DNA from: Prochloraceae cyanobacterium PL24a_bin.78
Lineage (GTDB): Bacteria > Cyanobacteriota > Cyanobacteriia > Cyanobacteriales > JANQIW01
NCBI GenBank assembly: GCA_028281945.1
Contig: JANQIW010000107.1
Location: 1 to 64,000 of the forward strand
DNA length: 64,000 nt
Reading direction: 5' to 3'
In this document: positions 1-3,809 of the stretch, in pieces
Position numbering within the stretch: position 1 is the first letter of the stretch
Layout: each line of letters opens with the position of its first letter
The notes under the pieces: model-generated
What the model saw: only the letters and a program-made list of their open reading frames with translations
What the model was told of the DNA's origin: nothing
The model's database searches: none
Position numbers and translations under genes: made by a program

Positions 1-1362
1 TTTGCCATCGACACGCCATCCTACTTGATCACCAAAATTTTCCCATATCTGCTTATTATACTTCCTTGTTCCCCCTAATTCTTGATAAATCTTTTTTTGA
101 ACGCTAAATCCAAAACGGCTATTACTGTAGTATACCCATAATCTGTCTATGGTGCGCAGATCTTGGCATGGGAAATTATCCATATCATGTACTCGAAGCC
201 AACCCTCTATCACCCTTTTAGTAGCTTTTAGCATAACTTGGAGAGTTTCTTGATCTGCTTCTTTCCATTTCTGTTTGGCGAGTAAATCCCTTAATCTGGT
301 ATAGTCTACTCCTACTTCACTTTCTAGAGGGATGGTTTTTGATGTAGGCGGAGGAGGAGAAATAGATTGAGGTGAAATTACTTCAGCACGAGAGCCACTT
401 TTATCAGAAGGAATGGGAGCTTCTCTTTTATCTTGTGGAGCTTTAGGATTATTTTTGAGAACAATTCTTTCGATAGCTGCGATGGCATCAATATCAGCAG
501 GAGATACAATCAACACTCGAATCCATAATTGCTTTGCCAGTTCAAAATTTTCTTCACTCTCAGCCCGAAATGCTTGGAGCTTTAAAGATTCTGCATCCCT
601 AATAGTGGCATATTGCTTTAACAAAATAAAATACATTTTATAAGGAGGTTCGGCTTTGAGATACGGATTTTGAATAATTTTATTATATTGAATATTAATT
701 TCTGGGATTCTACGAATTAGATAACCATCTAGCCGTTCCACAGTAGCACAGTTTCTTTCCCCTTGAATTCTTAATCCTTCCAATAAAGCATAGGTAAACG
801 AACCATGTTGTAATTCATCGATCTCCCAAGACTTTTGATTTGCATTGCAAGAGTAAAAAGTAATCACTCCTTTATGGGATTCCATACCAATTCCTAACCC
901 CCCTCGATTGCCATCATCCCTACAAGCATCTAAAAATAATACCACATTATCTGCCCCTGATCGACCTAATCTTTGGGTCACATAATTCACAGAAATAGCC
1001 GTATACTCTACATCACCGGGATCACTATCTTCCAACATTAAATAATCTTGATCCCCATAACGGCATCCATGGCCTGCAAAAAAGAACCAGAGATTGTCAC
1101 CTGCGCTGAGAGGAGGCATTTTAGTATCTTCAAATTGGGCACGTAGGAATCGCCGTAAACAGCCAAAAGTTGGTTTAGTCGGGATGGAAGACTTGCGAGT
1201 AGTTATGTTAGGAGAATCTTCCGTGAAAAGGAAAATCCTATCAAACTTAGCCTCTTCTTCCAACCAATTTTTCATAGCCTCGGCATCTGTTTTGGCATAT
1301 TTGAGAGGTGTTAGACTATCATATTCATTAATCCCAATGACGATCGCCCAATTCTTAGCCAT
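1..1362 (-). CDS. Caspase-family protease with C-terminal GUN4 domain (3'-partial)
   Basis: I translated the minus strand directly; the frame is open from the ATG at 1362 to the window edge (454 codons) with no stop. The N-terminus (MAKNWAIVIGINEYD) and the two catalytic blocks, FFAGHG with His98 and LFLDACRD with Cys147, are those of the C14 caspase/metacaspase-like family. Residues about 300-345 form a Pro/Ser-rich linker (ISPPPPTSK). From about residue 350 the chain matches GUN4 (LRDLLAKQKWKEAD, IEGWLR, SRFGFSVQKKIY). GUN4 proteins bind Mg-porphyrins and stimulate Mg-chelatase, so the fusion suggests a tetrapyrrole- or stress-responsive protease; that is inference. The ATG lies inside the last codons of the upstream Pepco-like gene (8-nt overlap), so the pair is translationally coupled. 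The 3' end lies outside the window, so the length and any further domain are unknown. Confidence 0.9.
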   Translation of the reverse strand, partial: MAKNWAIVIGINEYDSLTPLKYAKTDAEAMKNWLEEEAKFDRIFLFTEDSPNITTRKSSIPTKPTFGCLRRFLRAQFEDTKMPPLSAGDNLWFFFAGHGCRYGDQDYLMLEDSDPGDVEYTAISVNYVTQRLGRSGADNVVLFLDACRDDGNRGGLGIGMESHKGVITFYSCNANQKSWEIDELQHGSFTYALLEGLRIQGERNCATVERLDGYLIRRIPEINIQYNKIIQNPYLKAEPPYKMYFILLKQYATIRDAESLKLQAFRAESEENFELAKQLWIRVLIVSPADIDAIAAIERIVLKNNPKAPQDKREAPIPSDKSGSRAEVISPQSISPPPPTSKTIPLESEVGVDYTRLRDLLAKQKWKEADQETLQVMLKATKRVIEGWLRVHDMDNFPCQDLRTIDRLWVYYSNSRFGFSVQKKIYQELGGTRKYNKQIWENFGDQVGWRVDGK

Positions 1363-1741
1363 TTTTTCGTTTAAATTTAAGTTGAATAGTACCTTTGCTT
1401 CCTGCTGTAGAACCTATACCAAAGAGGTTTACTTGCCCTTGAGCATTAATTTCCACCGATAAAGTCAATTCATCTAACTCTAAACCCGATGGTTGTTGTT
1501 GAGCCTCACTGAAGACATAATCCACTATTTTCAGGAATTTGCTCATTTCTTCTTTGAGTTTTTTGGCAGGCACAGGAGTTGCATTGTCTCTGCTTTCTAG
1601 GGTTTCCACATTTTCCAATTGGGCATTTTCCAATTCATCCCTGAGTAAGCCTCCTGTATCTTGTGTGTTACTTCTGCGACCACTAGTTTCAGTATTTTCA
1701 GGGTTTACGATCCAAATATAATCTTCTATTTCTTTCGGCAT
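1355..1741 (-). CDS. Small Pepco-like (protease-co-occurring) protein
   Basis: This 128-residue protein has no signal peptide or membrane segment. It starts MPKEIEDYIWIV, has a polar linker at about 14-60, a helical stretch (MSKFLKIVDYVFSEAQ, about 65-80) and a beta-rich C-terminus (LELDELTLSVEINAQG to TIQLKFKRK). I recognise this pattern as the Pepco/Trypco type: small domains encoded beside caspase- or trypsin-like proteases in bacterial conflict systems. The family name is from memory and is unconfirmed. Its stop overlaps the ATG of the caspase-GUN4 gene by 8 nt, which supports a shared transcript and probably a physical or regulatory partnership with the protease. It is divergent from the DUF4351 gene at 1819, and the 77-bp gap must hold both promoters. 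Confidence 0.7.
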   Translation of the reverse strand: MPKEIEDYIWIVNPENTETSGRRSNTQDTGGLLRDELENAQLENVETLESRDNATPVPAKKLKEEMSKFLKIVDYVFSEAQQQPSGLELDELTLSVEINAQGQVNLFGIGSTAGSKGTIQLKFKRKNG

Positions 1742-1818: not shown

Positions 1819-2757
1819 ATGACCAGATTTATTCACGATCAATTTGCTAAAGATTACCTAGAGGAATTATTATCTCCCTATGGCGAAGTGAAAGCATCCC
1901 ATCAAATATCCCCAGAAATCAGGGAAATTGATATTTGGTTTTCACCTGCTGATAACCATCCTACCATGTCACCTTTAGGATTACTAGGGAAATTAGCCGC
2001 TAAACCAGCAATATTCGAGCCTTTCCGCAATTCTGCAAAAATTGACCAAATCCGTAGTTGTTTGCTAAAGTTATATCTTTTGCATGGTAAATTACAAAGA
2101 ATTGCTAATCGAGAAAAACAACCTCTCAAGGAGGAAAACTTACCTAGTTTGTGGATTCTCACTCCTACTTTATCCCAAAAAATTCTGACTGGTTTTGGCG
2201 CAAATCTCAATCAAGATGGGATATTGGCGGAAAGTGGGGTTTATTTCCTGCCTCAATTTTTCAAAAGTGGTATAATAGTCATACACCAATTACCAGAAAC
2301 CATAGATACCCTTTGGTTAAGATTGTTAGGCAGAGATAGCACTCAAGATAGGGCAATTGAGGAAATAAATAATTTAAATCCCAATAATCTTTTACGCTCG
2401 AACATTTTGAATTTAGTGGCAAATTTACGAACTAACTTAAATTTAAGAGATAATTTAGAGGAAGAGGAGAGAAATTTAATTATGAAATTAACACCTTTAT
2501 ATACAAAATGGCGAGAAGAAGCTATAGAAGAAGGTATTCTCCAAGGAAAACAGGAAGGAAAACAAGAAGGAAAACAAGAAGGAAAACAAGAAGGAAAACA
2601 AGAATCTATTGAGAATTTCCTGAAAGTCAAATTTGGTAGTTTAGATGAAGATTTATCTTCTCTAATTCAACCTTTAAGCGAGTTACCTGGTGAAGAAATG
2701 GCACGATTAATTATAAATTTATCACGAGAGGAATTATTACAACGTTTTAGACAATAA
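1819..2757 (+). CDS. Rpn-family / DUF4351 domain protein
   Basis: This 312-residue cytoplasmic protein has an N-terminal half (MTRFIHDQFAKDYLEELL, then EIDIWFSP) typical of the PD-(D/E)XK-type Rpn/transposase-like family widespread in cyanobacteria. About residues 205-240 form a charged helical region. Five GKQE repeats follow, encoded by a perfect-period 12-bp array at 2545-2604. The C-terminal DUF4351 module comes last (SIENFLKVKFGSLDEDL to LIQPLSELPGEEMARL). Rpn proteins in enterobacteria promote RecA-independent recombination; a nuclease role here is by analogy only. The gene is divergent from the Pepco-caspase operon and is followed by a truncated copy of its own 3' end. Confidence 0.75.
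   Translation: MTRFIHDQFAKDYLEELLSPYGEVKASHQISPEIREIDIWFSPADNHPTMSPLGLLGKLAAKPAIFEPFRNSAKIDQIRSCLLKLYLLHGKLQRIANREKQPLKEENLPSLWILTPTLSQKILTGFGANLNQDGILAESGVYFLPQFFKSGIIVIHQLPETIDTLWLRLLGRDSTQDRAIEEINNLNPNNLLRSNILNLVANLRTNLNLRDNLEEEERNLIMKLTPLYTKWREEAIEEGILQGKQEGKQEGKQEGKQEGKQESIENFLKVKFGSLDEDLSSLIQPLSELPGEEMARLIINLSREELLQRFRQ
2545..2604 (+). repeat. In-frame 12-bp tandem array (GKQE x5)
   Basis: Five copies of ggaaaacaagaa (the first has one A-to-G change) encode consecutive Gly-Lys-Gln-Glu units inside the DUF4351 protein. The length is a multiple of three, so copy-number change would keep the frame. Confidence 0.9.
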
Positions 2758-2853: not shown

Positions 2854-3218
2854 ATAATCTTTTACGCTCGAACATTTTGAATTTAGTGCCAAATTTACGA
2901 ACTAATTTAAATTTAAGAAATAATTTAGATGAACAAGAGAGAAATTTAATCATGAAATTAACACCTTTATATACAAAATGGCGAGAAGAAGGTATTCTCG
3001 AAGGAAAACAAGAAGGTATTCTCGAAGGAAAACAAGAAGGTATTCTCGAAGGAAAACAAGAATCTATTGAGAATATTCTAAAAGCTAAATTTGGTACTTT
3101 AGATGAAAACTTATCTTCTCTAATTCAACCTTTAAGCGAGTTACCTAGTGAAGAAATGGCACGATTAATGATGAATTTATCACGAGAGTATTTATTAAAA
3201 AACTTTGCACGAGAATAA
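2854..3218 (+). pseudogene. Truncated tandem copy of the DUF4351 gene 3' end
   Basis: From 2854 the sequence repeats 2384-2757 nearly base for base (NLLRSNILNLV... to the LSRE end), after about 96 bp of unrelated AT-rich sequence. The frame is stopped just upstream (TAA at 2848), so the nuclease-like half is absent. A 113-residue product could only start at the TTG at 2877, and no good ribosome site is visible. It keeps an intact DUF4351 frame. Its repeat tract has changed: three perfect 24-bp units at 2991-3062 encode GILEGKQE, instead of the 12-bp GKQE unit of the parent. It is most likely a non-functional duplication product, though a short expressed peptide cannot be excluded. Confidence 0.75.
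2991..3062 (+). repeat. 24-bp tandem array (GILEGKQE x3)
   Basis: Three identical 24-bp units sit in the duplicated DUF4351 fragment. The unit contains the parent's 12-bp GKQE word plus a neighbouring GIL(E/Q) word, so the array was re-amplified with a new period after duplication. Confidence 0.9.
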
Positions 3219-3344: not shown

Positions 3345-3809
3345 TTATAAATCTCTATAAGAAACAATCCAATACCAATTTTCTATAAGATTAAATGAAA
3401 AAGAACCAAAATAATTAGGAAAATATCCTGGAGGAAAATCGAGCAGATTTACTCTATGCTCATTACATATAGTCTCATTTTCTTGATACCAACCGACAAT
3501 CTCGCAAAAACTATCCCAAATTTCCAGATTAAATTCCTTGCTGCCACCTAAACATTTATAAATTCTTTTTTGACAGCTAAATCCAAAACGACCTTTACTA
3601 TACTGTGTCCATAATCCATCAATATTACTTAAAATTTTATAAGAGAAATCATGAACATCTTTTTCTCTCAGCCATCCTTCATTTTCTCGCTTAGCCGCTT
3701 TAATCATTAGCTGATAAGTTTCTTTGTCAGCAGCTTGCCATTGCTGTCTTATTAGTAAATCTTCAAGGGTTGTACAATCAACTTTTACTTTAATCGTTTT
3801 TAAATCCAT
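3345..3809 (-). CDS. Free-standing GUN4 domain protein
   Basis: This 154-residue protein is almost entirely GUN4: LEDLLIRQQWQAADKET, NEGWLREKD and KGRFGFSCQKRIY match the family core. A C-terminal segment of about 40 residues ends WYWIVSYRDL. It aligns block by block with the GUN4 part of the caspase fusion at 1-1362 and is probably a paralogue of that module. The bona fide chlorophyll-pathway Gun4 is usually longer, with an extra N-terminal helical bundle. This short form is therefore more likely an accessory sensor than the Mg-chelatase co-factor, although chlH is in the same window at 21 kb. It is transcribed alone. Confidence 0.85.
   Translation of the reverse strand: MDLKTIKVKVDCTTLEDLLIRQQWQAADKETYQLMIKAAKRENEGWLREKDVHDFSYKILSNIDGLWTQYSKGRFGFSCQKRIYKCLGGSKEFNLEIWDSFCEIVGWYQENETICNEHRVNLLDFPPGYFPNYFGSFSFNLIENWYWIVSYRDL

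Follow-up and report, generated by a model that had tools for sequence, protein, structure and literature searches.

The gene pair at the start of the window, the 64,000 nt stretch of cyanobacterial DNA that was analysed, belongs to a type of two-gene module that is widespread in cyanobacteria. The pairing of a Pepco protein with a caspase is constant in it and the C-terminal module of the caspase is exchangeable, an arrangement that has not been described before; in the window, this module is a GUN4 domain. A second new observation is that a hypervariable, G/T-rich tail of random length stands in place of the LxNxLR ligand motif in such GUN4 domains and is followed by a conserved DNA element with one stop in each frame. 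Judged from sequence, the reading that we consider somewhat more likely than not is that GUN4 provides an exchangeable, hypervariable recognition module on the Pepco-caspase pair, which would trigger the protease.

Gene content and domain architecture

The first gene of the pair (1355..1741, minus strand) encodes a Pepco protein of 128 aa, which matches PF24393 over the full profile (1-112/112) with 97.7 bits against a cut-off of 27 (E=7.7e-28). As is characteristic of the Pepco family, the neighbouring gene encodes a peptidase. This caspase-GUN4 gene (1..1362, minus strand) is cut at the contig end and overlaps the Pepco gene by 8 nt (1355-1362). The initial annotation had placed both open reading frames and their overlap at these positions, and its domain calls agree with the HMM search, since Pepco, Peptidase_C14 (PF00656, E=7e-21) and GUN4 (PF05419, E=7.6e-34, 117 bits against a cut-off of 29.2) all score above the curated Pfam cut-offs. 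The caspase domain (754..1353, minus strand) contains the dyad H98 and C147, which had been called intact and is invariant across 24 homologs. Both sequence and model indicate the p20 fold with His/Cys dyad of an orthocaspase, and the top Foldseek matches of the model are metacaspases and MALT1. The AlphaFold model of the caspase-GUN4 protein is weak (58), and useful Foldseek matches come from the caspase part only. A helical stretch and a proline-rich linker (322..628, minus strand, approximate boundaries) connect the caspase to the C-terminal module. The low-confidence model predicts helices at residues 240-304 plus a disordered stretch, and the linker region is conserved to about residue 303 among relatives with differing C-terminal modules.

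The GUN4 domain (4..321, minus strand) comprises the scaffold part, up to position 102 of the 141 profile positions. The C-terminal GUN4 domain of the initial annotation is present by HMM, but it is truncated to profile positions 2-102, since position 1 of the window coincides with the end of a contig (G000:C29:1). Another contig of the assembly, C7, starts with the same 99 nt as the end of C29 and carries the tail (C7:1-300). The join of the two contigs is inferred from this exact overlap; it adds the missing 66 residues, and the completed protein, which rests on the join, would have 520 aa with the C-terminal end ...VGHLPYWNVVCEVIGMLDDEMLWKEEVELWIPSLASRLVKCNI. The break in the assembly falls within the GUN4 domain, shortly 5' of the hypervariable tail, and mixed tail versions could be the cause. 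Directly 3' of the completed gene lies an HTH_37 (antitoxin-like) gene (L021:463-768, plus strand).

A second GUN4 paralog, absent from the initial annotation, is located 1.6 kb from the Pepco gene. This stand-alone, complete gene (3345..3809, minus strand; PF05419, E=7.8e-29) encodes 154 aa. Its divergent tail (3369..3416, minus strand) follows GYFP, lacks LxNxLR and ends in ...NWYWIVSYRDL. The whole genome contains 19 GUN4 matches, seven caspases and one Pepco. Also adjoining the Pepco-caspase pair are a gene (1819-2757, plus strand) that is similar to Rpn-type nuclease genes and has weak, below-cut-off similarity to DUF4351, together with its partial tandem copy (2877-3218, plus strand), both with expanded GKQEGKQEG/EGKQEGIL repeats. 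A similar gene adjoins a GUN4 gene on contig C52 (L032).

A constant pair with an exchangeable module

Pepco is present in 136 of 390 genomes of the class. At 56 of the 87 sampled Pepco loci, the gene lies directly 5' of a caspase gene, and 21 of these 56 caspases carry GUN4. The coupling of both genes reported in the initial annotation thus recurs in relatives, and the 56 loci indicate that it is not due to chance. Relatives of the window caspase (59-70 % identical) nearly all adjoin Pepco and carry other C-terminal modules, namely FGE-sulfatase/C-type lectin or modules that were named from sequence motifs as amidase, penicillin-binding-type and BON. Among 109 distinct caspases, the C-terminal module is FGE in 54, GUN4 in 31 and an amidase in three, with WD40 among the others. 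On a caspase-domain tree built by quick search, the GUN4 label requires 12 changes, of which well-supported branches force at least seven. The 31-row clade that contains the window protein has no other GUN4 member, and its remaining rows carry FGE or other modules. It follows from the tree and the module counts that the Pepco-caspase pair is constant while its C-terminal module is exchanged. This caspase family has seen at least 7-12 gains or losses of GUN4, which is also new here.

Fusions of caspase and GUN4 as such have been described since 2010 (PMC2853523), and a later survey of 473 cyanobacterial orthocaspases counts 29 of them (PMC8283722). As far as the accessible portions of PMC2853523, PMC3501461 and PMC8283722 extend, these orthocaspases/metacaspases have the same two-domain architecture with an intact catalytic dyad, but a Pepco partner, module swapping, the loss of LxNxLR and a hypervariable tail are not reported there. 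GUN4 and FGE have further been given as cyanobacterial modules of two-gene conflict systems (PMC7159879, PMC8195603). The EACC1, TRADD-N/EACC2 and MoxR-vWA ternary systems of these studies likewise combine a constant component with a caspase and a varying end, whereas the constant partner here is Pepco. The pair shares with the conflict systems the constant caspase with a variable C-terminal module, but not an EACC1 or TRADD-N first gene: EACC1, TRADD-N, vWA and MoxR were not detected in the window pair, and the Pfam search of the first gene gives Pepco only.

Another explanation is a toxin-antitoxin-like pair, in which Pepco would inhibit the caspase stoichiometrically and the only task of the C-terminal module would be to set the localisation. 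This explanation fits the small size and first position of Pepco, the often overlapping or close genes, and the conservation of Pepco with the caspase instead of with one C-terminal module. On the other hand, the AF2 model of Pepco (pLDDT 55) is too weak to give a fold, and we regard this explanation as unlikely.

Loss of the GUN4 ligand motif

The initial annotation had proposed that GUN4 gates the caspase by binding tetrapyrroles. This idea is already in print, as tetrapyrrole sensing by GUN4 has been proposed for attached caspases, kinases, trypsin and TIR domains (PMC7159879), and the ligand motif of the domain does not support it. The motif LxNxLR corresponds to L209, N211, L213 and R214 of the Synechocystis protein. 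It thereby contains SynN211, which matters for bilin binding (PMC10156173), and SynR214, whose counterpart AtR211 is important for porphyrin binding, as its mutants lose affinity 3-12 fold (PMC8967248). The fetched loci contain 89 complete GUN4 genes. LxNxLR is kept in all 30 orthologs among them and in none of the 59 paralogs, of which five have R at the R214 position and two have N at the N211 position. The motif is thus lost in the GUN4 paralogs, while their GUN4 palm is conserved. The completed window protein reads GHLP-YWNVVC at the motif site, with L209, L213 and R214 replaced and N at the N211 position; the canonical GUN4 ortholog of the same genome keeps LSNQLR. Of the sequence features of a tetrapyrrole-binding GUN4, the window protein has the HMM match and lacks LxNxLR.

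A clade of GUN4 paralogs that lacks the bilin Asn or the LxNxLR motif has been reported before (PMC10156173). The proteins described here share the GUN4 palm with this clade and with the Mg-chelatase cofactor, and differ from both in the hypervariable tail after GHLP, the three-frame-stop element and the fusion to effectors.

Allosteric control of the caspase by a Mg-porphyrin or bilin bound to GUN4 would be compatible with the conserved palm and an HMM match well above the cut-off, and Chlamydomonas GUN4 still bound porphyrin when the Asn was replaced (N219G; PMC10156173), so that other residues of the window protein may bind porphyrin. However, all 59 paralogs have lost the motif, including in most cases the Arg on which porphyrin affinity depends, and a contact segment that varies in sequence and length is unsuited to one fixed ligand. 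Moreover, the same slot holds FGE, amidase or WD40 in other family members. Tetrapyrrole gating is therefore considered improbable, and an exchangeable recognition module remains the preferred reading of the domain.

Hypervariable tails

The sequence after GHLP differs completely among the GUN4 paralogs. Orthologs from one genus (L107, L108 and L109) are about 90-98 % identical over most of the caspase region and unalignable in the tail. From the 3' element onwards they are again 85-100 % identical, mostly continuing into non-coding DNA. For pairs with more than 72 % upstream identity, most tails are close to the shuffled level, and a few related tails keep residual similarity above shuffles (e.g. 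0.63 vs 0.47). This variation was observed between species. The tails are 25-115 nt long and, pooled over 30 genes (1620 nt), consist of 41.5 % G, 32.8 % T, 17.7 % A and 8.1 % C. Their base composition does not differ between codon positions (p=0.41), in contrast to the upstream sequence (p=5.5e-49), and their amino-acid frequencies match random sequence of the same base composition. The exception is stop codons, which are missing from all 529 tail codons (P ~1e-14). Because of this random-like composition and the absence of stops, the tails resemble random DNA in which selection maintains an open frame. Random tails could also be tolerated instead of selected, but the lack of stops argues against this.

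In addition to the tails, two unrelated genes show a short in-frame tandem duplication directly 5' of the tail, DTNFSLN-YDDTNFSLN in the window gene (L021, contig C7, about positions 120-180) and DPFFKKDPFFKNN at L282. A smaller second variable loop occurs 5' of GHLP at L107, L108, L109 and L114 (HPQKND / HPHYSFLFGAGG / YPKIFLGDGR).

A conserved 3' element with stops in three frames

The tail terminates in a conserved DNA element, TCTCTTCTCTCGCRTCGAGACTTGTAAAGTGTAACATATAA. Its core has 25 matches in 14 of 15 genomes and 31 matches across all loci, compared with none for the reversed control in either search. The inspected matches sit at GUN4 3' ends, and the element is absent from the 30 canonical GUN4 orthologs. 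It is conserved across families and orders, also where no nuclease adjoins. The copy of the stand-alone GUN4 paralog in the window (3345..3368, minus strand), which ends at the stop codon of this gene, is degenerate with 16/24 matches, a value reached by 0 of 500 shuffles. About half of the GUN4 paralogs, this one included, have a degenerate or undetectable element.

The element is read in all three frames (11, 11 and 8 of 30 genes), resulting in protein ends such as SLASRLVKCNI, LFSRVETCKV and LLSHRDL. Each frame contains one stop, at offsets 21, 28 and 35 in 29, 29 and 25 of the 30 genes, respectively, and TAA, TAG and TGA interchange at these conserved positions. That three stops are kept although one gene uses only one of them points to frame changes in the past.

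Other roles of the element were also considered. An antisense gene running through it was rejected, since the loci of genus g60, read by hand, show a stop before the frame and no start codon. RNAalifold found no conserved RNA structure of the element, Rfam gave no credible match, and no viral contigs carrying the exact element were found.

Origin of the tails

There is no sign that the tails were copied from the flanks or arose by internal slippage, as the numbers of shared 9-mers and repeated 6-mers do not leave the range seen in shuffles. A homology search for donor cassettes in the window's genome found none. Diversity-generating retroelements (DGRs) are a known source of similar variation: cyanobacterial proteins diversified by DGRs, including C-type-lectin orthocaspases, likewise join a protease or kinase to a hypervariable 3'-end module (PMC7517822, PMC10907252), and the FGE members of the window's caspase family belong among them. 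The GUN4 tail could accordingly be a classical DGR target whose template is located elsewhere or lost. This would be in line with FGE, the alternative module of the same caspase family, being a DGR target (PMC7517822), and with the presence of real DGRs with adenine-specific differences between template and variable repeat (TR/VR) in the same genomes. Against it, outside adenines no GUN4 tail agrees with any reverse-transcriptase locus at more than 55 %, which is the chance level, and the tail of the window gene has no second copy in its assembly. RVT_1 genes occur in eight of nine genomes; the exception, G180, carries the element twice. None of the three RVT_1 genes of the window's genome (ORFs of about 480-550 aa) shows a GUN4 template. 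The tails have neither a template differing only at adenines nor a fixed length and frame; their length is free, and each of the three frames is in use. Based on the reverse-transcriptase searches, the adenine-aware TR/VR comparison and positive controls, a DGR origin was rejected as very improbable. The tails thus differ from DGR targets in their GUN4 scaffold, in having no template repeat, fixed length or adenine bias, and in occurring also in a genome without an RVT_1 match. Typical template and variable repeats were seen in G199, G213, G266 and G051, and the DGRs at L291, L303, L313 and L299, which served as positive controls, have variable proteins of the FGE type, and most differences from their templates fall on adenines.

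In the clustering of neighbouring genes, a Y1/IS200-type HUH protein ranks next after the GUN4/effector proteins and Pepco. A Y1_Tnp gene is found within 0.75 kb of nine of the 25 elements (two each in G180, G199 and G269, and one each in G213, G179 and G254), compared with about 0.04 expected from its density. Seven Y1 proteins are convergent with GUN4 and are 64-78 % identical to the first, and the others are more distant; one of the seven adjoins a GUN4 gene without an intact element in G266. The seven proteins keep the NHxH and YIHxNP motifs, which are marks of class-2 TnpA_REP (PMC6006769). Apart from this likeness to RAYT/TnpA_REP endonucleases (PMC6006769), they form a subfamily of about 250-280 aa that is convergent at GUN4 3' ends and is absent beside the window gene; the only Y1 protein of the window's genome lies away from its element. 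A causal role of the HUH nuclease in tail diversification is a hypothesis.

The proximity of these nucleases and the random-like composition of the tails would also be expected of a mutational scar, in which a RAYT/REP-type HUH element or DNA damage repeatedly breaks the 3' ends of GUN4 paralogs and the random tails, without a recognition function, are tolerated as dispensable ends. Such a scar does not account for the absence of premature stops in the tail codons, for three-frame stops kept across families, for the conservation of the element across orders even without an adjoining nuclease, or for the fusion of tails to NACHT, TIR, kinase and caspase effectors, and it is rated as unlikely. 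A targeted, non-DGR diversification in cyanobacteria, in which random G/T-rich stretches of free length are placed between the GHLP codons and the three-frame-stop element of GUN4 paralogs fused to caspase, NACHT, TIR or kinase effectors, is a possibility that we put forward only tentatively. Such a process may use a RAYT-type HUH nuclease to open the site for tail writing, and an element with a stop in each frame would ensure that any tail outcome gives a terminated receptor. If true, this would be a prokaryotic counterpart of the N-region diversity in antigen receptors.

Proposed function

The sensor function, the activation of the protease, the role of Pepco and an active diversification are inferred. 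In the proposed mechanism, the GUN4 palm would be kept as a scaffold and the segment after GHLP swapped for a rapidly changing tail. The tail would bind a ligand, possibly one of phage or other foreign origin or one linked to the state of the cell. Binding would then free the caspase or bring it into clusters, and Pepco would act as an adaptor or brake. The presumed outcome is cell death or targeted proteolysis.

Tail and element occur together on genes for caspases, kinases, NACHT-GUN4, TIR-GUN4 and NACHT-FGE-GUN4 proteins. The C-terminus is the usual position of the sensor in NACHT proteins, and the C-terminal position of the tailed GUN4 on them supports recognition rather than tetrapyrrole metabolism. 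If the proposal is correct, the fold of a chlorophyll regulator has become a hypervariable recognition module that drives caspase, NLR-like NACHT and TIR effectors by a route other than a retroelement, and orthocaspases have a second diversified module. This would also explain the presence of about twenty GUN4 genes in some genomes and the loss of the bilin motif in the paralogs.

Two further loci illustrate the range of arrangements. At L315 (G051:C77:1-14000), four GUN4 genes are arranged in tandem, two of them fused to kinases, and their tails are unrelated. At L322 (2842-5589, minus strand), a NACHT-FGE-GUN4 protein combines both kinds of exchangeable module, and a RAYT gene is convergent with its gene.
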